Shown piece after piece: positions 18,449 to 30,334 of a stretch of DNA of 36,196 nucleotides. Position 1 is the first letter of the stretch. Each line of letters opens with the position of its first letter. The notes beneath the pieces are model-generated. The model did no database searches and had not been told where the DNA came from. It saw only the letters and a list, made by a program, of their open reading frames with translations. The DNA comes from an uncultured Rhodospirillales bacterium (GTDB lineage: Bacteria > Pseudomonadota > Alphaproteobacteria > ATCC43930 > CGMCC-115725): assembly GCA_903923205.1 (NCBI GenBank), contig CAIXXC010000244.1, positions 1 through 36,196 on the forward strand, given 5' to 3'. The position numbers and the translations under genes were made by a program.

Positions 18449-18480
18449 CCCCGGGCCGGCACGCTGGCCCGGGGTTTTTT
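18449..18480 (+). terminator. Rho-independent terminator of the GST gene
   Basis: CCCCGGGCC (18449-18457) and GGCCCGGGG (18466-18474) form a perfect nine-base-pair stem with an eight-base loop, followed by six T residues (18475-18480), 30 bases after the GST stop. The last two T residues belong to the TAA stop codon of the convergent thioesterase gene. Confidence 0.95.
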
Positions 18481-18925
18481 ATGCCTGAGCAACAGGTAAT
18501 TTATAGGCCATGGACATCAGCATCTCGCGCTTTCCGTCATCCAGAGGTGACGGCCCGGCGGCGTCGCAGTGGACATAAGTTGTATCGCACAGCCCCACGC
18601 AAACACCCCCGCGGAACAGGCCCTGAAACAACTCAAACGAGCTGCGCCCGATGCGGGAGACCGCCGTCGCCACGGTCAGCGGTGATGGATGATGAATTTC
18701 CTCGATATATCGCAGATTGGTCTGCGCCATGACACTGCGCGCACCCCTGCTGCGTTCGAGATCCGGCAGGACCCGCATCAGAACATCATAGCGGGCATCG
18801 TCATAGATGCCGGCGATCGCCGTATTCGAGACATGGCGCGCCGCGTTGACGTCACCGAGCCGGGTCGGAATGATCTTTGTAAGACGATAGCTGTCGATTT
18901 CGAGACGATGCGGTGCAGGCTTCAT
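18479..18925 (-). CDS. Hot-dog fold acyl-CoA thioesterase
   Basis: This 148-residue protein resembles the 4-hydroxybenzoyl-CoA thioesterase group. The family start motif is seen in altered form as TRLGDVNAARHVSNTAIAGI (about 21-40), with Asp25, His31 and Asn34 at the usual positions. LRYIEEIHHPSPLTVATAVSRIGRSSF follows, matching the second half of the fold. It lies 32 bases downstream of the anti-sigma HATPase gene on the same strand, so they are probably co-transcribed, although no functional link is known. Its stop codon sits in the T run of the convergent GST terminator. Confidence 0.82.
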   Translation of the reverse strand: MKPAPHRLEIDSYRLTKIIPTRLGDVNAARHVSNTAIAGIYDDARYDVLMRVLPDLERSRGARSVMAQTNLRYIEEIHHPSPLTVATAVSRIGRSSFELFQGLFRGGVCVGLCDTTYVHCDAAGPSPLDDGKREMLMSMAYKLPVAQA

Positions 18926-18957
18926 GGCGGTCTCGGAATAAAGACGTCAAGACTTCC

Positions 18958-19407
18958 TCAGGTGGTAAAACTCATCACCAGCCGATTGCCTTGGGGCAGC
19001 GCCTGATAGCGCACCCTCGGCACCAAGCCAAGAACCATCGCTATGCCGCGCTGTCCTACCGCCTCTGCGTCATGCTCCCGCGCCAGCCAGCCCTCGTGCC
19101 AGGCAACCGGGTCGAAGGGCGTGGCCGCATCTTCATAAACGAGCTCGACCGGCGGCCCGGGACGCAGATGGATCGATATGATGCCAGGCTCCGGCGTCTC
19201 CCGGTAACCGTATTTCTCGGCATTGGTGACCAGCTCCTCTATCACCAAGTTCAGGCGGGCGCGCAGGCCATCATCAAGGTTACGCCGGATCGCGTATTGT
19301 TCTACAGTATCGAGGGCTTCCACGAGATTAGATGTCGTGGCCGCGAAGCTCACAACAAGATCGACCGCGCGCGCGGTGTCGGTCTCTGACGGGGTACTTT
19401 CATGCAT
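18958..19407 (-). CDS. RsbW/SpoIIAB-like anti-sigma factor serine kinase (HATPase_c)
   Basis: This 149-residue GHKL-type ATPase is of the partner-switching kinase group. The N box is NLVIEELVTNAEKYGY, with Glu58 and Asn62 as the expected catalytic and magnesium residues. The G1 box is EDAATPFDP (92-100), where the usual glycine after Asp-x is Ala95. The G2 region is GQRGIAMVLG (118-127). Such kinases bind a target and phosphorylate a STAS antagonist; a STAS gene and a PP2C phosphatase lie nearby. The ATG at 19407 is the only good start and overlaps the FecR start codon on the other strand within ATGCAT. Confidence 0.88.
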   Translation of the reverse strand: MHESTPSETDTARAVDLVVSFAATTSNLVEALDTVEQYAIRRNLDDGLRARLNLVIEELVTNAEKYGYRETPEPGIISIHLRPGPPVELVYEDAATPFDPVAWHEGWLAREHDAEAVGQRGIAMVLGLVPRVRYQALPQGNRLVMSFTT

Positions 19408-19863
19408 CGCCTGAATCTTGCCTGCCTGTTGACCGTTCTGCTCTCTCTCGGCGCCACCCCTTCATCGGTATTCGCCGATGATCCGATCGGCCAGATCAAA
19501 ACACTGTCTGGTTCGGTCACGGTGACACGCGGCGGCGCCTCGATCAAGGCGGCGATCGGCGATCACGTCCTGCAGGCCGATGAGATTCTCACAGGCGGTG
19601 ATGGAGCGATCGGCATCACCTTTGCCGATAACAGCATGATGTCGCTCGGCCCGTCGAGCAAGCTCGATCTCGATCAATTTCAGTTCGATACAACAACCCA
19701 CGCGGGTGTCTTCAACACGTCGCTCAAGGCCGGCACCTTGGCCGTCAAGTCTGGACAGATCGTCCAGCAGACGCCCTTTGCCATGCATGTCCAGACGCCT
19801 GCGGCTCTGCTCGGGGTCCGGGGAACCGAATTCGTCGTTCGCGCTGATGGAGCCGCAAATTGA
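19402..19863 (+). CDS. Secreted FecR-domain protein
   Basis: This 153-residue protein has a signal peptide (positively charged start, hydrophobic LACLLTVLLSLGATPSSVFA, probable cleavage after Ala25). A FecR domain follows (about 28-150), with IKTLSGSVTVTRGG, the segment GDHVLQADEILTGGDGAIGI and the terminal motif QTPAALLGVRGTEFVV. It lacks the helix-turn-helix-sensing N terminus of the classical inner-membrane FecR, so it is a free periplasmic domain. Standalone FecR proteins are often encoded beside CHASE2 receptors, which is the case here, suggesting a periplasmic ligand or partner. Its TGA overlaps the TTG start of the next gene. Confidence 0.9.
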   Translation: MHRLNLACLLTVLLSLGATPSSVFADDPIGQIKTLSGSVTVTRGGASIKAAIGDHVLQADEILTGGDGAIGITFADNSMMSLGPSSKLDLDQFQFDTTTHAGVFNTSLKAGTLAVKSGQIVQQTPFAMHVQTPAALLGVRGTEFVVRADGAAN

Positions 19864-20459
19864 CCAACGCCTCGCGCCTCGCCGCTCTTTGTGCATTGTC
19901 CCTGCTTGGGGCCTGCGCGTCCAAGGCCAATCTGGTCGTCGTCATCCCCGAGGAGAACGGTCATATCGGCGCCGTTCAGGTCGAATCCGGGGGTTCAACC
20001 ACCCTGCTGACAGGCGCCTATGCGGCGCTCGGGGGCGGCTCGGGCTCCAGCCATATGAAGCCGGTCCAGCTTGCCTCGACAGAGGTCGGGCAGATCTTCG
20101 GCACGGCATTGTCAGCCCAGCCCATTCCGCCCAAGACTTACACGCTTTACTTCATCAATGATTCAGAAGACCTCAGACCCGACTCGAAACTGGCATTCGA
20201 GCAAGTATTCGGCGAAATCGCCCGACGCAAGGCGGCGGAATTGGTCGTGACCGGCTTTACCGACACGATGGGCGACCCCGGATATAATGATCAGTTATCG
20301 CTGAAACGGGCCAAGGTCGTGCGTGACCTCTTCATCGCACGCGGCCTAAAGGGCGAAGATATCGTTGCTGCCGGCCGGGGAGAACGTGACCTCCTGATCC
20401 CTACCCCTGATCACAAGGCTGAACCCGGCAATCGACGCGTCGAAATCACCGTTCGCTAG
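19860..20459 (+). CDS. OmpA-family peptidoglycan-binding lipoprotein
   Basis: This 199-residue protein begins with TTG in a TTGA overlap with the FecR stop; no ATG is available upstream. The signal peptide ends in a lipobox LLGAC, with Cys19 as the lipidation site. The C-terminal OmpA domain (about 95-199) has VTGFTDTMGDPGYNDQLSLK and RRVEITVR, the typical peptidoglycan-binding pattern. It should be anchored in the outer membrane and hold on to the cell wall. Coupled to the FecR gene, it may form part of an envelope sensor with the CHASE2 phosphatase, whose convergent gene begins only 12 bases away. Confidence 0.9.
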   Translation: MTNASRLAALCALSLLGACASKANLVVVIPEENGHIGAVQVESGGSTTLLTGAYAALGGGSGSSHMKPVQLASTEVGQIFGTALSAQPIPPKTYTLYFINDSEDLRPDSKLAFEQVFGEIARRKAAELVVTGFTDTMGDPGYNDQLSLKRAKVVRDLFIARGLKGEDIVAAGRGERDLLIPTPDHKAEPGNRRVEITVR

Positions 20460-20471
20460 GCGGCACCGCAG

Positions 20472-22565
20472 CTACACCCCGATCCACTGGACGGCAAGAA
20501 GCGTCAGGTCGTCCGACGGCGGCGCACCATCGACGAAAGCAGCCACCGCTCCGCGCAGAAGATGCGCGAGTGATCGTGCATCGCCATCGACGGGCTGCTG
20601 CACGAAAGCGGCTTCGACCCGCTCATGTCCCATCAGGTCTCCAGCCGAATTCATCGCTTCGGTCACGCCGTCGGTCACAAGGCAGAGAATCTCTCCCGGC
20701 GCGAGTTGATATTCCTCGCTCATGTAGGGGAAGTCATCCATGACGCAGAGCGGTGGCCCGCCGATCGAGGCCATCTGTCGGGGCGGCTGTCCAGGGACTG
20801 CCAGAAACGGCGGGTCATGGCCGGCGTTGCAGAAACTTAGGCTGCCCGTCCGCAAATCAAGGATGCCGGCGAACAACGTGATGAACAGCATCTCGGTATT
20901 GTCGCGGGAGATCTCTGTGTTCGCGCGCAGAATGATCTCGCCAATGTCAAACTCCTCGCGCAGGGCGCAGCTCTTACATAGTGCCTTGCCCACCGCCATG
21001 AAGAGGCTGGCCGGCACGCCCTTGCCTGAGACATCGCCGATAAGAATGAAGAGGTGATCGTCGTCGATCTTGAAGAAGTCGTAGAGATCGCCGCCGACAT
21101 GCTTGGCCGGGACAATTTGGGCTTCGAGATTAAAGCGCGGGTCGGGCAAGAGATCCTCCGCTTTCGGCAAAATCCCCATCTGAATCCGGAAGGCTGCGGC
21201 CAACTCGCCCTCCATCGTCGCCGCCAGCAGCTTCTGCTTTTCCAGGGCGCTGCGGAGCAATTTGCGCTGCCGGTCAGCCTCGGCGAGGCCACCACCAAGC
21301 AGCGCAACGAAGACGGCCGCGTCGGCGACTACGGGCGTCGCCACGTCGATCAACCAGCGCTCATACGCCCAGCCCGCAATACCAGCAGCACAGGGCGCGA
21401 TCAGCAGGCCGGTTGCGGCGAGCGCCTGCCAGCGCAGGCGCAATGGCGGCAGGCCAACGATCATCAGCAAGCCAAGCCCGAGCGTAATCGCTTCTTCGGC
21501 CCATAAGGCCCAGTCCGGACGGCTCGCGTAGCGACCGTCGAGCACGTTCTCCATGACCTGCGCGTGGACCTCGACCCCCGGCATGACCCCGAGCGGCGTA
21601 TTGAAGTGGTCGATCAGGCCAAGGCCGGTGACGCCAATCAGCACAAGGCGCTGATCGAATACGTCGGCGGGCAATCTGCCGGACAGGACGTCACCAGCCG
21701 AGACAAACCGGCGCTCATCAGTGCCAGTAAAATCGACCCAGATCCGGCCATCCGCCTGCGTTGGGATCGACAGGGGGCCAAGCTCGATACCACGCATCTC
21801 ACCGCCATTCAGCCGGATAGTGAGCCACGGACTGCGGGCGGCGAGCCGCAGCGCTTCGATACTGAAACCCGGTGCGATTCGTCCGCCCAGAAGCGACACT
21901 GACGGCACACGACGAACCATGCCGTCCGCATCGAGATCGATAGAGAGCATGCCATGGCCCGCGGCCGCGAAATCAAGAATCGGCAAGCTGCGCAAGGTCG
22001 AACGAAAATCTGGCAAACCCCTCGGCGCGCCTCCGATCAACCGCGTCGGCGCGAGGGGGCCCGGATGATCGGGACGATCATCACGCTGACCAGCGATGCC
22101 GATCGTGACTGGCCCTTGGGCAAGCGTGGCGGCCAATTCAGCGTCGTGATCAGGCAATTCCAGCAACGCCCGGTGCAATGCCGGCGTCAGCCCATGCTGC
22201 TGCGCGGCCCAGCGCGCCGGCGACGAGGCATCGAACTCGGGCCAGATGATATCGATCCCAAGCGACATCGGATGCCCACCCAAGATCCGATGGACCAATT
22301 CCGCCACGCGCTGGCGCGGCCAGGGCCATTGACCATAGGCGGCAAGGCTTGCCTCATCGATCGCCACGATCACGACAGGGCCCGATTTTCGCACCCGTGG
22401 AACAAGACGCTCGTATGCATCGAAAAGAGCGAGACGCGGACCCGAAAAAAGGGCCTCGCCGACACTCGCCTGCAGCAGCACGAAGACCAGCAATACGGCG
22501 ATCGCAGCAATACGCCCGCGACCGGCCATCATCAGGTCCACCCCCCGCTTTGCCAGGGAGTTCAT
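20472..22565 (-). CDS. CHASE2-transmembrane-SpoIIE/PP2C serine phosphatase
   Basis: This 697-residue membrane receptor has a first transmembrane helix at about 19-37, a periplasmic CHASE2 sensor domain (about 40-345, including VVIVAIDEASLAAYGQWPWP and DQRLVLIGVTGLGLIDHF), three further transmembrane helices (about 356-374, 381-400 and 408-428), a short coiled linker, and a cytoplasmic PP2C domain (about 455-697). The metal-binding aspartates are visible as Asp493 (VGGDLYDFF), Asp511 (IGDVSGKG) and the C-terminal PPSDDLTLL. This kind of phosphatase activates a phosphorylated STAS antagonist in response to an extracytoplasmic signal. It is the last gene of the STAS-MBL-phosphatase operon. Confidence 0.94.
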   Translation of the reverse strand: MNSLAKRGVDLMMAGRGRIAAIAVLLVFVLLQASVGEALFSGPRLALFDAYERLVPRVRKSGPVVIVAIDEASLAAYGQWPWPRQRVAELVHRILGGHPMSLGIDIIWPEFDASSPARWAAQQHGLTPALHRALLELPDHDAELAATLAQGPVTIGIAGQRDDRPDHPGPLAPTRLIGGAPRGLPDFRSTLRSLPILDFAAAGHGMLSIDLDADGMVRRVPSVSLLGGRIAPGFSIEALRLAARSPWLTIRLNGGEMRGIELGPLSIPTQADGRIWVDFTGTDERRFVSAGDVLSGRLPADVFDQRLVLIGVTGLGLIDHFNTPLGVMPGVEVHAQVMENVLDGRYASRPDWALWAEEAITLGLGLLMIVGLPPLRLRWQALAATGLLIAPCAAGIAGWAYERWLIDVATPVVADAAVFVALLGGGLAEADRQRKLLRSALEKQKLLAATMEGELAAAFRIQMGILPKAEDLLPDPRFNLEAQIVPAKHVGGDLYDFFKIDDDHLFILIGDVSGKGVPASLFMAVGKALCKSCALREEFDIGEIILRANTEISRDNTEMLFITLFAGILDLRTGSLSFCNAGHDPPFLAVPGQPPRQMASIGGPPLCVMDDFPYMSEEYQLAPGEILCLVTDGVTEAMNSAGDLMGHERVEAAFVQQPVDGDARSLAHLLRGAVAAFVDGAPPSDDLTLLAVQWIGV

Positions 22566-22588
22566 TGCTCCAGCCCTCGTCGTTGCCG

Positions 22589-23548
22589 CTATACCTCGAT
22601 CACGAGCCCATCATAGGCGGACGAGACCGTGAGCTGCTCCCCCGTTCGGGTAATCTCTTCGAAGCGCAGCGTCTCCTGATAGATCGACTCGATCTTGGCA
22701 TCATCATGAATCGGCTCATGGTGAAAAAGACAAAGGTGCTTGACCCCTGCCATCTGGCTCAATTCGACGCCGGTAATATTGCTCGAGTGACCCCAGTCCT
22801 CTTTCACGGAACTTGCCTCCGCCAGCGAGTACATCGCATCGAAGATGACAAGGTCCGCATCGCGAAAAAGCCCGACAACCTTCTTGGTATCGTCAAGATT
22901 CTCAAGCTTGTGCTCGGAATCCGTCGAATACACCACGGTTTTGCCATCCTTTTCGATCCGATAGCCGTAGGAATCATTGCCGTGAACCTGCGCGGTCCCC
23001 GTGACCATCGCCCCTGCGATCTCGTAGGCTACGCCGGGTTCCATATGAACAAATTCGATCGACGCCGCGAGGTAGGAGTATTCAACCGGGAAGCATGGTG
23101 CCGAATTCTGACCACGGATGGCTCGTTCCACCATCGGATGACAACTGTGCATGCGGATGCGATTGCCCGGAATGAACGCGGGGACGAAGAAAGGAAATCC
23201 CATGATGTGGTCCCAATGCACATGGGACAATAGGATATTGTAGACTTGAGGCTGGGCCGGTCCATGCTTGGCCAGCGCCGCGAGAGAGAATTCCCGAACG
23301 CCAGACCCCAGATCACACAGCAGATATTCCGCCCCGCCAGTATCGATTTGAACGCAGGAAGAGTTTCCGCCGAACGTGCTCGACTCGGCGAAACTCAATG
23401 CCTCATCGCAGAATCTGGACGCCTTCTCGATCGAATCGAGGCCCTTGTCGGCACCCTTAACCAGGGCATTGACGATTTTCTCTCGAACCCTGCGCCCAGA
23501 GAGCGGTGCCGGCAGCGAGCCGCGGGTTCCCCAAAAGGTTACTTTCAT
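22589..23548 (-). CDS. Metallo-beta-lactamase-fold hydrolase
   Basis: This 319-residue hydrolase of the beta-lactamase-fold superfamily begins with MKVTFWGTRGSLPAPL and has the zinc motif SHVHWDH (His109, His111, Asp113, His114), then VHGNDSYGYRIEKDG, STDSEH and FHHEP as later ligand regions. Proteins with the N-terminal GTRGS motif are often annotated as possible phosphodiesterases acting on nucleotides; that is suggestive only. I chose the start at 23548 because it has a GAGA-type site and lies 10 bases after the STAS stop; the upstream extension of 13 residues overlaps STAS. It is the middle gene of a partner-switching operon, where its role is unclear. Confidence 0.9.
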   Translation of the reverse strand: MKVTFWGTRGSLPAPLSGRRVREKIVNALVKGADKGLDSIEKASRFCDEALSFAESSTFGGNSSCVQIDTGGAEYLLCDLGSGVREFSLAALAKHGPAQPQVYNILLSHVHWDHIMGFPFFVPAFIPGNRIRMHSCHPMVERAIRGQNSAPCFPVEYSYLAASIEFVHMEPGVAYEIAGAMVTGTAQVHGNDSYGYRIEKDGKTVVYSTDSEHKLENLDDTKKVVGLFRDADLVIFDAMYSLAEASSVKEDWGHSSNITGVELSQMAGVKHLCLFHHEPIHDDAKIESIYQETLRFEEITRTGEQLTVSSAYDGLVIEV

Positions 23549-23558
23549 CGTTTCTCTT

Positions 23559-23924
23559 TCAGGCGGAACCGAAGGCCTCCAGGGCATCGGGTGCTAATTT
23601 GGCTAGCGCATCGCGAGTCGACTCGAAACAGGGGAAAACAAGGTCAAAACGGCTGATCGCGAAAATCTCTCGCACCACCGGTCGCATCGCAGCAATCCCA
23701 ACAGTGACACCATTGGGCTTACCGGCCTTGGACGCGATCATTACGGAACGCAAGCCCGCACTACTGATATAATCAACCTCAGATAGGTCCAAAATCAACG
23801 CCGAGCGTGCCACCCCAACCAACCGAAGGAGGATGGCTTTGAATGCTTCCGCATTGGTCAGGTCGATACGGCCGGACGGGGACAACACAATGCTGCCGCC
23901 AAATTGCGTCTCCAGCACTTCCAT
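23559..23924 (-). CDS. STAS-domain anti-sigma factor antagonist (SpoIIAA/RsbV-like)
   Basis: This 121-residue single STAS domain has the conserved LILDLSEVDYISSAGLRSV, where Ser55 aligns with the phosphorylated serine of SpoIIAA; the preceding aspartate is replaced by Ser54. In the known mechanism an unphosphorylated antagonist binds the HATPase kinase and frees its target; the phosphatase resets it. It is the first gene of the STAS-MBL-CHASE2/PP2C operon. The ATG at 23924 follows a run of G residues. A hairpin-like sequence GCTGA...TCAGC (23945-23966) lies in its leader. Confidence 0.92.
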   Translation of the reverse strand: MEVLETQFGGSIVLSPSGRIDLTNAEAFKAILLRLVGVARSALILDLSEVDYISSAGLRSVMIASKAGKPNGVTVGIAAMRPVVREIFAISRFDLVFPCFESTRDALAKLAPDALEAFGSA

Positions 23925-26410: not shown

Positions 26411-29400
26411 TCATTGCCGCGTGCTGTTTAGCCGGTTCCGCGAAGATCTGAAAATCGCGCCTGTTCGCGCCAGGGACTGGCCGAAACGTGGATCATCAAT
26501 CGCGATGCCAAGGCGACGCCGCCAATTGGGATATTCGGTCGACGTTCCCGGCATGTTGACCGCCTCGGTCTCGGCCAGGATATCGTCGATCTGCGCAAGA
26601 GCGAGCGCCGAGCCGGCACCGCCGATCGCGGCATGGAGCGCATCGATCAGGCCCGGCGGTGTTGACGAACCGTCGCACGGATCGATTCTCCCAGGCGGGA
26701 TGAGACCCAACGCTTCGAGCATCTTGAGGTAGTCGGCGCGCTCGGTAATCCGGGCGATCATCGCGGCATCGCGCTGCTCGGCATCCATCAGGCCGATGCG
26801 ATAGCGCGCGGCAATGTCGCGACCCAGCCAGAAGCCGGCAAGCGTTGGCAAATCATGGGTGGCCGCCATCGCGACAGATAGATAGGGATATCGGGCCGGA
26901 TCAACGATCGCCCCATCCCCGGTTCGCTCAAAAGGCAGAACCTTGTAGGAGAGCACTTGGCGTGCTGCCATCGCCGCACGGAAACCATCCGGAACGACAC
27001 CCAGATCTTCGCCGATAACCAGGCAACCCTGTACCTCGCTCTGGGTGGCCAGGATCTCCACCAGGGTGTCAAAGGGGTACGAAAGATAGGTTCCGGCATT
27101 AATCGAGCGGTCGGGAGGGATCACGAATAGCCGCTGCAAAGACATTGCGTGGTCGATGCGCAACGCCCCGGCGTGTCGCATATTTGCGGCAATCAGATCG
27201 CCGAAGGGCTGGAACCCGGCAGCAGCCAGGGCTTTTGGATCGGGGGCCGGCATGCCCCAGTTCTGGCCTTCCGGGCCCATTGGGTCGGGCGGTGCGCCGA
27301 CGTTCAGGCCCGAGGCAAGTGCCGGAATAGCCCAGGCTTCGGCGCTGTCCCGCGCGGAGGCGACGGCGAGATCGCGATAAAGACCGATCCGCATCCCCGC
27401 GACCTTCGCCCGCGCTTCGGCTGCGGCGAGTTGTCCATCGGCCAGGAATTGCAGATAAAGCTGAAACTCGGTTTCACGTGACAGTTTTGCACCTTGATCT
27501 GGCCGCTCCGGCCATTGCCACCAGGGCGGAATACCTTTGCCTTGTTCATGCAAGACCGCTCGCATAGCCTCGAATTCTGCGTAGCGCCGGATCGCCGCGC
27601 CCTCTCGCGTGACGAATGTGACGAAATCGGCACGTCGTCCGGCATCGGCGCCCGTCAAGAATTGCTCGAATAGCAGCGAGAGCATGGCGCGTTTTAGCGC
27701 CGCGACGCCTGCATAATCGACATCAGCAGACGCGCGCAGCCGAGCCAGTTCCGCCTGAAACGCCTCGTCTGCGAGCATCTCCTGTGCCGGCCGACAGACG
27801 GCCAGTTCAGGGACGTCGATCACTGCAATCGCAAGCGTATCAAGGCATAGTCGGCTTACCGGGGAATAGGGACTACAGTCGAGCGGTCGGGTAAGCGATC
27901 TCGCGTGCAGGGGATTGAGCCCGATCAAATCGGCCCCCTCTGCCGCTGCCATCTCAGCCATCAGGCCAAGGTCACGATAGTCGCCGATTCCCCAATTGGT
28001 TGCCGAGCGCAAGGTATAGAGCTGGACTGCAATTCCCCAGAGACGCTCGCCGCGGCGAAGGGGCTCCGGCAAGAAGCATCGGGTCACGCCGGCAACGGGC
28101 TCGGCGATGGCCTGTCCGACCTGATCAATGTCTCTGATCGCCGCCTCGACGGCGGGGTTGTCGGGCAATTCGTAGCCGAGTCCGCGCAACAGGGCTTCGC
28201 GATCTTCTGGCGAGGGCGTGGCCCAACGCCCGAAGGCATCGCGATAGCCGGGCGCAAACCCGACCAGGGCCGCCAGTCGCTCAACTCGCTCAGAATCAAG
28301 CATCGGCCCTACCGCGCGCAACACGACGACGCCACGCCCTGCAAGTCGGTAGCAGCTCTCGGCGGTTAGCCCGGAAATACGCTCGGCAACAGTATCGACC
28401 TCGACTCGCCACCGGCCCGACGGCAATTTCACGTCGACGGGGCCGGGGTCACCGTTCATCAGCACGACCAGGCGATCACTATCTTCCGGGATGACCGGTT
28501 CAAGCAGCATGACCAGTTGAGCCCCGTGCCAGTCATCCTGCGCCATAAATTGGCCGTCAGGGCGAAGCCATTGCACGTTTGCAGGCTCCAACCAATCGGT
28601 GCGGCTCAGCTGCGGGCAGGCGCGGCGCAATGCTGTCAGAGTGCCGACAAACGCGCTCAGGGCGCTATCGGCGTTGTACCAGTCGAGCCAGGTTATCTCG
28701 TTATCCTGGCACCACGCATTATTGTTGCCCTGCTGGCTATGTCCGAGTTCATCCCCCGCCCTCAGCATCGGCACGCCCTGCGCGAGCAATAGGCTTGCCA
28801 GCAGGGCACGCTGTGCCCGAGATCTCTCGGTGATCACGTCAAGGTCGTCGCTCGTCCCTTCGATACCGAAGTTCCGGCTGTAATTCGCATTGAGGCCATC
28901 ACGATTCTGCTCGCCGTTGATCTCGTTGTGCTTGTCCTGAAACGAGACCAGATCGGCGAGCGTGAAACCATCATGCGCCGTGATGAAGTTAATCCCTGCC
29001 TGCGGTCGTCGACGACTATGGCGGAACTGTCGGCTTGAGCCGGCGAGCCGGTCCGCCAGGGACCCAGCGCTGGCCGATCCGCCTAGCCAGAAGCGGCGAA
29101 GATCGTCACGGAAGCCGTCATTCCACTCACTCCAACCGGGCGGGAAACCACCGACATGGTAACCGTTGGCGCCCACATCCCAGGGCTCGGCGATCAGCTT
29201 TACGTCCTGAAGAAGGGGGTCCTGACGGATAGCGTCCAGCAACCCCGCGCCCGCATTGAAATCGTCGGGTTCCCGCGCGAGGACAGTCGCGAGGTCAAAG
29301 CGAAAGCCATCGACATGATATTCGCGACGCCACCAGCGCAATGAATCCATAATCAGCTGGACCACACGTGGATGGCGGCAGTCGAGCGCGTTGCCGGTTC

Positions 29401-30334
29401 CGGTCGGGTTCTCGTACTGACTTGGGTCGCCAGGATGGAGACGGTAATAGCTGGCATTGTCGATGCCGCGAAAACTCAAGGTAGGACCGGCGCGATCGCC
29501 TTCGCCGGTATGATTGAAGACGACGTCGAGAATGACCTCGATCCCGGCGGCGTGGAGTGCTTTGATCGCGGTCTTGAGCTCACGCCTCGGATCGGCGGCG
29601 CCATAGCGGGGATCGGGCAGGAAAAAGCCGAGGCTGTTATAGCCCCAATAGTTCGTCTGGCCCCGTTGGCGCAGGAAAGGCTCGTCGACCAGCCCCATCA
29701 ATGGCAACAGTTCGATTGCGGTAACGCCGAGCCTGTTCAGATGATCGGTGAGCGCAGCCGCGCCCAAGCCAAGGTAGCCCCCGCGATCAGCCCGCGCTAT
29801 TGCCGGATGACGGCAAGTCAGGCCCTTGAGATGGGCTTCGTACAGGATCGTTTCCGACCAGGGCGTGCGCGGCGGGTGATCGCTGCCCCAGTCGAAATCG
29901 TCCGACCCGATCACCACCGCCTTGACCATCGATGGGCCGGTATCACGGGAGTCAAAACCCGGTTCTTCGCCATCTACCCCAAGCTGATGACCGTCGCGGG
30001 GGTCGATCGGGCCGAAAGCTTTCGACCAGGCTTTGGCATAAGGGTCGAGCAGCAGCTTGTTTGCGTTGAAGCGCATCCCACGGCGCGGATCGTAGGGCCC
30101 ATGGACGCGATAGCCGTAAAGCTGACCCAGCGCCAGGCCGGGAAAATAGCCGTGCCAGACCTGATCGGTGCAACCCGACAAGGGCCGGCGCAGGGTCTCC
30201 GTCACGCCATCCTCAGCGTATAAACAAAGGTCAACCGCCTCCGCATGAGCCGAAAACAGGGCGAAATTCACACCCTCTCCGTCCCAGGTCGCGCCCAGCG
30301 GATAAGGCTTGCCCGGCCCGGCTCGACCGTTCAC
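26411..30334 (-). CDS. GlgX-MalQ fusion: glycogen debranching enzyme / 4-alpha-glucanotransferase
   Basis: This 1307-residue protein joins two enzymes of glycogen breakdown. Residues 1 to about 675 are a GlgX-type debranching enzyme with catalytic Asp347 (GFRFDLA), Glu383 (LIAEPWDV) and Asp455 (TAHDGFTL). Residues about 680-1307 are an amylomaltase (MalQ) with nucleophile Asp1061 (ALRIDHAM), Glu1109 (VIGEDLGVVP) and Asp1161 (ATHDLPTLAG). The two modules are intact. A GTG start at 30334 is used; the N terminus (KPYPLGATWDGEGVNFALFS) matches GlgX. It lies 21 bases after glgP in a glgA-glgP-glgX/malQ operon. Bifunctional GlgX/MalQ proteins are known in several proteobacteria. Confidence 0.95.
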   Translation of the reverse strand: MNGRAGPGKPYPLGATWDGEGVNFALFSAHAEAVDLCLYAEDGVTETLRRPLSGCTDQVWHGYFPGLALGQLYGYRVHGPYDPRRGMRFNANKLLLDPYAKAWSKAFGPIDPRDGHQLGVDGEEPGFDSRDTGPSMVKAVVIGSDDFDWGSDHPPRTPWSETILYEAHLKGLTCRHPAIARADRGGYLGLGAAALTDHLNRLGVTAIELLPLMGLVDEPFLRQRGQTNYWGYNSLGFFLPDPRYGAADPRRELKTAIKALHAAGIEVILDVVFNHTGEGDRAGPTLSFRGIDNASYYRLHPGDPSQYENPTGTGNALDCRHPRVVQLIMDSLRWWRREYHVDGFRFDLATVLAREPDDFNAGAGLLDAIRQDPLLQDVKLIAEPWDVGANGYHVGGFPPGWSEWNDGFRDDLRRFWLGGSASAGSLADRLAGSSRQFRHSRRRPQAGINFITAHDGFTLADLVSFQDKHNEINGEQNRDGLNANYSRNFGIEGTSDDLDVITERSRAQRALLASLLLAQGVPMLRAGDELGHSQQGNNNAWCQDNEITWLDWYNADSALSAFVGTLTALRRACPQLSRTDWLEPANVQWLRPDGQFMAQDDWHGAQLVMLLEPVIPEDSDRLVVLMNGDPGPVDVKLPSGRWRVEVDTVAERISGLTAESCYRLAGRGVVVLRAVGPMLDSERVERLAALVGFAPGYRDAFGRWATPSPEDREALLRGLGYELPDNPAVEAAIRDIDQVGQAIAEPVAGVTRCFLPEPLRRGERLWGIAVQLYTLRSATNWGIGDYRDLGLMAEMAAAEGADLIGLNPLHARSLTRPLDCSPYSPVSRLCLDTLAIAVIDVPELAVCRPAQEMLADEAFQAELARLRASADVDYAGVAALKRAMLSLLFEQFLTGADAGRRADFVTFVTREGAAIRRYAEFEAMRAVLHEQGKGIPPWWQWPERPDQGAKLSRETEFQLYLQFLADGQLAAAEARAKVAGMRIGLYRDLAVASARDSAEAWAIPALASGLNVGAPPDPMGPEGQNWGMPAPDPKALAAAGFQPFGDLIAANMRHAGALRIDHAMSLQRLFVIPPDRSINAGTYLSYPFDTLVEILATQSEVQGCLVIGEDLGVVPDGFRAAMAARQVLSYKVLPFERTGDGAIVDPARYPYLSVAMAATHDLPTLAGFWLGRDIAARYRIGLMDAEQRDAAMIARITERADYLKMLEALGLIPPGRIDPCDGSSTPPGLIDALHAAIGGAGSALALAQIDDILAETEAVNMPGTSTEYPNWRRRLGIAIDDPRFGQSLARTGAIFRSSRNRLNSTRQ

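Follow-up and report, generated by a model that had tools for sequence, protein, structure and literature searches.

Genes of the Locus

The DNA considered here, which we call the window, comprises positions 1 to 36,196 (36,196 nucleotides) of contig CAIXXC010000244.1 from an uncultured Rhodospirillales bacterium (GenBank assembly GCA_903923205.1). A Pfam domain search found in it six genes in three transcription-direction units (Table 1), which encode a STAS protein, a hydrolase of the metallo-β-lactamase (MBL) fold, a membrane-bound CHASE2-PP2C phosphatase, an OmpA-family lipoprotein, a FecR-domain protein and a HATPase-type kinase. All six pass the Pfam cut-offs by wide margins, and the domains that a first-pass annotation of this DNA had listed are thus present as stated. 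Gaps of 10 and 23 bases separate STAS, MBL and CHASE2-PP2C in the minus-strand unit. In the plus-strand unit FecR is followed by the lipoprotein gene, whose TTG start (19860) overlaps the FecR stop. The HATPase gene, on the minus strand, is divergent from FecR, and the 5' ends of the two genes overlap. The MBL gene most likely starts at 23548 (MKVTFWGTRG...), and not at the first ATG of its open reading frame at 23587, because homologues begin at the former position and the latter falls within STAS; its residues are numbered accordingly.

The first-pass annotation had drawn the locus as 18479-23924, a range that does enclose the six genes but begins too early, as it takes in a 4HBT thioesterase gene (18479-18925) that was not among its listed parts. 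The thioesterase was considered as a seventh part and rejected; it was seen beside the set only in the window and in its own genus, and the locus therefore extends from 18958 to 23924.

Table 1. Features of the six-gene locus in the window (aa, amino acids; TM, transmembrane segments).
Feature	Positions	Strand	Match and predicted role
HATPase_c_2 protein, 149 aa	18958..19407	-	PF13581, 4.7e-15; predicted Ser kinase of STAS (RsbW/SpoIIAB type)
FecR-domain protein, 153 aa	19402..19863	+	PF04773, 2e-11; predicted periplasmic partner of CHASE2
OmpA-family lipoprotein, 199 aa	19860..20459	+	PF00691, 1.4e-14; lipobox LLGAC
CHASE2-(3 TM)-PP2C/SpoIIE membrane phosphatase, 697 aa	20472..22565	-	PF05226, 1.9e-52; PF07228, 1.2e-41
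MBL-fold metallohydrolase, 319 aa (long type)	22589..23548	-	PF12706 (Lactamase_B_2), 6.2e-19; predicted effector enzyme
MBL metal-binding motif SHVHWDH (H109 to H114)	23207..23224	-	
STAS protein, 121 aa	23559..23924	-	PF01740, 7e-17; predicted phospho-switch
STAS Ser55 codon, predicted phosphoacceptor	23760..23762	-	Ser in 65/65 STAS rows

Spread and Conservation of the Gene Set

Named species genomes were scanned with an alignment of the MBL protein, and profiles of the individual components were built from the 80 loci obtained. A search of these loci with the profiles gave, after removal of recognised duplicates, 39 complete six-gene sets, so that the co-occurrence in relatives for which the first-pass annotation had proposed to look was indeed found. 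Order and orientation are identical in 35 of them (STAS> MBL> CHASE2-PP2C> <OmpA <FecR HATPase>); two of the four deviating sets stem from the calling of overlapping FecR and HATPase frames, and the other two have the HATPase gene upstream of STAS. The alphaproteobacterial scope suggested beforehand covers 13 of the sets but is too narrow, as a further 13 are betaproteobacterial, 3 gammaproteobacterial and 4 from Rokubacteria, the remainder being without a class assignment. Erythrobacter longus, Novosphingobium lentum and Sphingomonas alba are among the carriers. All six genes are thus genuine, and together they constitute a conserved cassette.

The arrangement goes beyond chance, because 35 of 39 sets, spread over several classes, share order and orientation. 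In a tree of the MBL proteins, the CHASE2-linked copies form, bar a few losses and one exception, a single group of 62 rows with 99% support. The copies from Rokubacteria cluster with betaproteobacterial ones, and this grouping suggests horizontal transfer. While such a transfer would also suit a chance or selfish clustering of genes with no shared function, we find that explanation hardly credible in view of the constant order across classes, the gene fusions and the invariant catalytic residues described below, and it is already contradicted by the fate of split cassettes, both halves of which are kept. In four genomes (G235, which is complete, G121, G327 and G268) the cassette stops after CHASE2-PP2C and the FecR-HATPase half is retained elsewhere, in G268 together with OmpA. 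No FecR was found by the detached HATPase in the stretches fetched from G119, G233, G284, G318 and G351, several of which ended at contig ends. Among 16 related control HATPases from genomes that lack the long MBL type, FecR is adjacent in one, that of G202. Its locus (L285 6317-8535) looks like a cassette remnant, in which a truncated PP2C, OmpA, FecR and HATPase are kept and CHASE2, MBL and STAS are absent. Mirror-tree partial correlations were not used in these comparisons; the value for STAS-MBL was 0.35, but adjacent pairs scored high in general (FecR-HATPase 0.37).

The Predicted Partner-Switching Proteins

By domains and residues, the STAS protein, the HATPase_c_2 kinase and the PP2C domain make up a predicted partner-switching module. 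The serine of STAS that the first-pass annotation had singled out as phosphorylatable, Ser55, is the second serine of the motif YISSAGLR and is invariant in the alignment, and the nearest solved structures of this protein are mycobacterial anti-sigma factor antagonists. The likeness of the kinase to RsbW, noted earlier as well, was recovered when a profile of 23 cassette kinases was compared with solved structures: RsbW (6m36) was the best match (1.3e-14), and SpoIIAB was also matched. The N box of the kinase is intact, with N62 conserved at 100% and E58 at 97%, and D93 is conserved at 100% as well; the G1 box of the window protein (EDAATPFDP) is without the usual glycine. The metal site of PP2C is likewise intact, D493, D511, D632, D685 and D686 being conserved at 100% and D496 at 98%.

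The genome of the window (G000) carries a second STAS-HATPase pair on contig C383 (L045 8016-8808) and a separate receiver-domain (REC) PP2C on contig C465 (L046 6530-7831). These resemble the RbaVWY type, and cross-talk between them and the cassette is possible.

The Predicted CHASE2 Sensor and Its Proposed Envelope Partners

Hydrophobic segments of the CHASE2-PP2C protein lie near residues 22-40, 354-377, 381-399 and 405-430. The FecR protein has a single one, the N-terminal signal peptide (residues 6-24), and no other membrane segment. In the OmpA lipoprotein, the peptidoglycan-binding residues D135 and R150 are conserved at 100% and the lipobox cysteine C19 at 86%. To see where the two envelope proteins belong, one may look at CHASE2 genes with other outputs, which, in those non-cassette genes that could be typed, are adenylate/guanylate cyclases or histidine kinases. 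A FecR gene lies within the fetched region in about 21 of 39 such genes from related genomes, and at three of their loci (L132, L146, L152) both FecR and OmpA are present. Because the two are also found with CHASE2 proteins that have a cyclase or histidine kinase output, FecR and OmpA are assigned to the CHASE2 sensor and not to the switch, in keeping with the tie between the FecR/OmpA pair and CHASE2 that had been proposed from the window alone. A transmembrane anti-sigma system of the FecR/FecI type, in which FecR crosses the inner membrane, carries an anti-sigma domain in the cytoplasm and adjoins an ECF sigma gene, was also considered; the FecR protein of the cassette has 153 residues with only the N-terminal hydrophobic segment, and no sigma gene lies beside it, so that this assignment was rejected.

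Linkage and Fusion of STAS and MBL

The long MBL type of the cassette was found in 16 of 385 evenly drawn alphaproteobacterial genomes, where it scores 353-512 bits against at most 241 bits for a short paralogue. A STAS gene lies directly upstream on the same strand in all 16 of these genomes and at none of five short-paralogue loci, and STAS is adjacent at all 54 CHASE2-linked MBL loci. At five loci (L043, L044, L070, L081, L287) a single open frame encodes both STAS and MBL, joined by a short linker; the tree demands three or more changes to account for these fusions, which occur in no fewer than three lineages. All five fused STAS domains retain the predicted phosphoacceptor, four of them reading YxSSAGL and one YASSMGL. 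In G034, CHASE2-PP2C and STAS stand without an MBL gene alongside, and a STAS-MBL fusion is encoded elsewhere in the genome. At some loci from Desulfobacterota and other groups, the same MBL neighbours a PP2C with a different sensor part, such as dCache-HAMP, and STAS/HATPase are present at part of these loci; the sensor therefore varies and MBL is constant. The obligate linkage within the cassette type and the fusions are most simply explained by an action of STAS on MBL. The first-pass annotation had left the hydrolase without a place in known schemes, a view that no longer holds for the most constant partner of STAS.

One could instead envision MBL upstream or in a feedback loop, as an enzyme that destroys or makes a small molecule tuning CHASE2-PP2C or the kinase and that is itself not the output. 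The position of the MBL gene, flanked by STAS and PP2C in the same unit, would fit this arrangement, as would the genomes, such as G034, in which CHASE2-PP2C and MBL occupy separate loci; we nevertheless regard it as very improbable, given that the partner in the fusions found is STAS and never PP2C or the kinase, and that MBL is cytoplasmic while the sensor faces the periplasm.

A gene for an NMT1/THI5-like periplasmic binding protein directly precedes the dCache-HAMP-PP2C gene at L100 (1836-2825) and might encode an alternative sensor partner; an open reading frame of similar size precedes PP2C at L126 and L114. Two of the five short MBL paralogues adjoin a gene for a MotB-plug/OmpA protein (L216 4160-5713; L214 294-1795).

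The Metallohydrolase and Its Likely Substrate

The metal ligands of MBL (H109, H111, D113, H114, H189, D210 and H276) are conserved at 98-100%; within the motif, H109, H111 and H114 are invariant and D113 is conserved at 98%. Hydrophobic-segment prediction found no signal peptide, which places the enzyme in the cytoplasm. An AlphaFold model of the window protein is of high confidence (predicted local distance difference test, pLDDT, 92.7), and its nearest solved folds are 1zkp and YhfI (6kns; Foldseek E 2.7e-15), followed by RNase Z (1y44). The motif SHVHWDH fits [T/S]HXHXDH, the motif of the atypical class-II cyclic nucleotide phosphodiesterases, which include Rv1339, YhfI and CpdA (PMC9293780); Rv1339 hydrolyses cAMP, cGMP and 2',3'-cyclic nucleotide monophosphates (2',3'-cNMPs) (PMC9293780). 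The window genome encodes two class-III cyclases and five cNMP-binding proteins. Fold and motif together indicate that MBL is probably a phosphodiesterase, for which cyclic nucleotides would be the most likely substrate. The substrate is only inferred, because MBL scores well under the curated cut-offs of both the cNMP phosphodiesterase and the RNase Z families.

The same relay might alternatively act through an RNase Z-like nuclease, such that an envelope signal would alter the processing of tRNA or other RNA. We hold this improbable, as 1zkp and YhfI outrank RNase Z among the folds and as the NCBIfam RNase Z models are far from reached (57.7 bits, cut-off 292.95), even though RNase Z is among the nearest sequences of MBL as well as its nearest folds. 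A gene neighbour with a link to cyclic nucleotides occurs once, in Erythrobacter longus, where a CHASE2-cyclase gene adjoins the cassette (L107). In Verrucomicrobia, the gene after the long MBL codes for a 3'-5' exonuclease of the DNA_pol_A_exo1/RNase D family, and STAS is absent from the surroundings (L104, L127); the adjacency keeps RNA in play as a substrate. L111, L116, L124 and L128 likely have the same arrangement.

Proposed Output of the Relay

To our knowledge, the ligand of CHASE2 domains is not known, and most Gram-negative partner switches are without a known output; sigma factors and a diguanylate cyclase are among the outputs of STAS switches known to date. The cassette joins the question of CHASE2 sensing with that of partner-switch output in one compact and transferable set, in which the comparison with other-output CHASE2 genes links FecR and OmpA to the sensor, and the fusions link MBL to the switch.

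We suggest, with about even confidence, that the cassette encodes a self-contained envelope-to-enzyme relay, in which a partner switch under CHASE2/FecR/OmpA controls the MBL hydrolase. The CHASE2 ectodomain, the periplasmic FecR protein and the outer-membrane, peptidoglycan-binding OmpA lipoprotein would read the state of the envelope, and the resulting signal would alter PP2C activity. Homology and the conserved residues suggest a cycle in which the RsbW-like HATPase would add a phosphate to Ser55 of STAS and PP2C would remove it. The phosphorylation state of STAS would then govern its binding to MBL and thereby the activation or inhibition of the enzyme. The relay would thus operate in a manner similar to the SiaABCD system, with a hydrolase in place of the diguanylate cyclase. 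More tentatively, we consider it possible that the cassette represents a widespread system in which the CHASE2/FecR/OmpA-driven switch has an MBL-type cyclic nucleotide phosphodiesterase as its direct output, so that the state of the envelope would set the level of a second messenger via its degradation. If true, the relay would offer a testable ligand side (peptidoglycan/FecR) together with a measurable enzyme output, and a hydrolase would join the known outputs of STAS switches.

Several observations weigh against these proposals. About 20 long MBLs, found in Verrucomicrobia, Desulfobacterota and other groups, lack a STAS gene in their vicinity, and the enzyme is therefore able to work without the switch. 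STAS-MBL occurs without CHASE2-PP2C alongside in G363 and G165. An AlphaFold model of a natural STAS-MBL fusion (L070) gave no firm domain arrangement (predicted template modelling score, pTM, 0.68). A helical insert of about 40 residues (residues 14-56, after FWGTRGSLP), which is missing from the short paralogues, is also found in long MBLs with no STAS nearby and was rejected as a STAS-specific docking element for that reason. As for the substrate, MBL reaches 59.7 bits with the NCBIfam model for cNMP phosphodiesterases (NF041851), the cut-off of which is 400. Cyclases are present in 16/16 cassette genomes and in 29/30 controls and hence do not discriminate; cyclase co-occurrence was dropped as a test of the substrate.

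In the classical type of output, dephosphorylated STAS would bind the HATPase and thereby free a sigma factor or another protein encoded elsewhere, with MBL as an accessory. The first-pass annotation had likewise let STAS release the target of the HATPase, which now appears less likely than an action of STAS on MBL, given the linkage and the fusions. The resemblance of the HATPase profile to the anti-sigma factors RsbW and SpoIIAB, and that of STAS to anti-sigma antagonists, speak for such an output, the genes for which may sit in trans. We nonetheless judge it unlikely, although by no means negligible, as MBL is linked to STAS at every CHASE2-linked locus and fused to it in several lineages, and as no sigma gene is conserved in 53 cassette neighbourhoods, a result with which a sigma target in trans is still compatible. 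No conserved GGDEF or other output gene was found by the cassette either, and the recurring neighbours reflect synteny among close relatives or generic families, so that the earlier remark on the absence of a nearby output gene stands. Work on RbaW of Rhodobacter capsulatus identified no sigma factor for it and pointed to the STAS protein itself as the output (PMC3999984). Taken together, the sequence data and the analogy with SiaC and SiaD lead us to favour control of MBL by STAS phosphorylation over sigma factor release, and the interpretation given in the first-pass annotation is, overall, partly supported.

Other Genes near the Cassette

A gene for a ShlB/POTRA outer membrane protein of two-partner secretion recurs beside cassette genes (L042 5463-7175; L117 7284-9209; also L102 and L112); it lies between FecR and CHASE2-PP2C in G034 and beside STAS in Erythrobacter. 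Elsewhere in the window, positions 26411-30334 encode a single protein of 1307 residues that combines a GlgX-like debranching part (CBM48, alpha-amylase) with a GH77 4-alpha-glucanotransferase, and genes for glycogen phosphorylase and glycogen synthase adjoin it.

Comparison with Known Systems

Searches of an open-access library, which does not extend to subscription journals and preprints, found no paper on CHASE2-PP2C together with MBL; within the same bounds, the remark in the first-pass annotation that it knew of no described system with the full set stands. Neither the set as a whole nor its proposed enzyme output appears to have a published description, while the type of relay, its parts and its logic are already known. 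With RsbU/RsbV/RsbW and SpoIIE/SpoIIAA/SpoIIAB the cassette shares the logic and the residues of PP2C, STAS and kinase, but it has no sigma gene in or beside it and possesses a membrane CHASE2 sensor and an MBL enzyme. We know of no earlier partner switch with an MBL hydrolase as its effector.

RbaV/RbaW/RbaY is, like the cassette, an alphaproteobacterial system with STAS and HATPase for which no sigma factor was found (PMC3999984), yet it lacks CHASE2, FecR, OmpA and MBL, and its input is a PP2C with a receiver domain (RsbY type) instead of CHASE2. The association of CHASE2 with FecR neighbours, which the first-pass annotation had called known, has precedents in the BiofilmReg system of Burkholderia, where a FecR-LysM protein accompanies a CHASE2 kinase (PMC5192318), and in Campylobacterota, where CHASE2-adenylate cyclases are clustered with FecR, a TPR protein and a cAMP phosphodiesterase (PMC9239204). 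These operons resemble the cassette in combining a periplasmic FecR-domain protein with a CHASE2 sensor, in the peptidoglycan-binding partner (LysM in Burkholderia, OmpA in the cassette) and, in Campylobacterota, in the phosphodiesterase neighbour; their outputs, however, are histidine kinases or cyclases, and we know of no PP2C/STAS switch described with CHASE2. The atypical class-II phosphodiesterases share with MBL the PF12706 fold, the [T/S]HXHXDH motif and the YhfI-type structure, but they stand alone, whereas the cassette enzyme has the STAS linkage, the 40-residue helical insert and about 18% identity to YhfI.

The closest working analogue of the cassette is SiaABCD of Pseudomonas aeruginosa, in which dephosphorylated SiaC activates the diguanylate cyclase SiaD (PMC7647112, PMC8457831). 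There, too, one operon provides a membrane PP2C, a HATPase-type kinase, a STAS-like switch and an enzyme effector that is bound by the dephosphorylated switch. The two differ in that the effector is a GGDEF diguanylate cyclase in the one and an MBL-fold hydrolase in the other, in that the sensor of SiaABCD is not CHASE2 and is without FecR and OmpA, and in that the switch and kinase of the cassette match PF01740 and PF13581.

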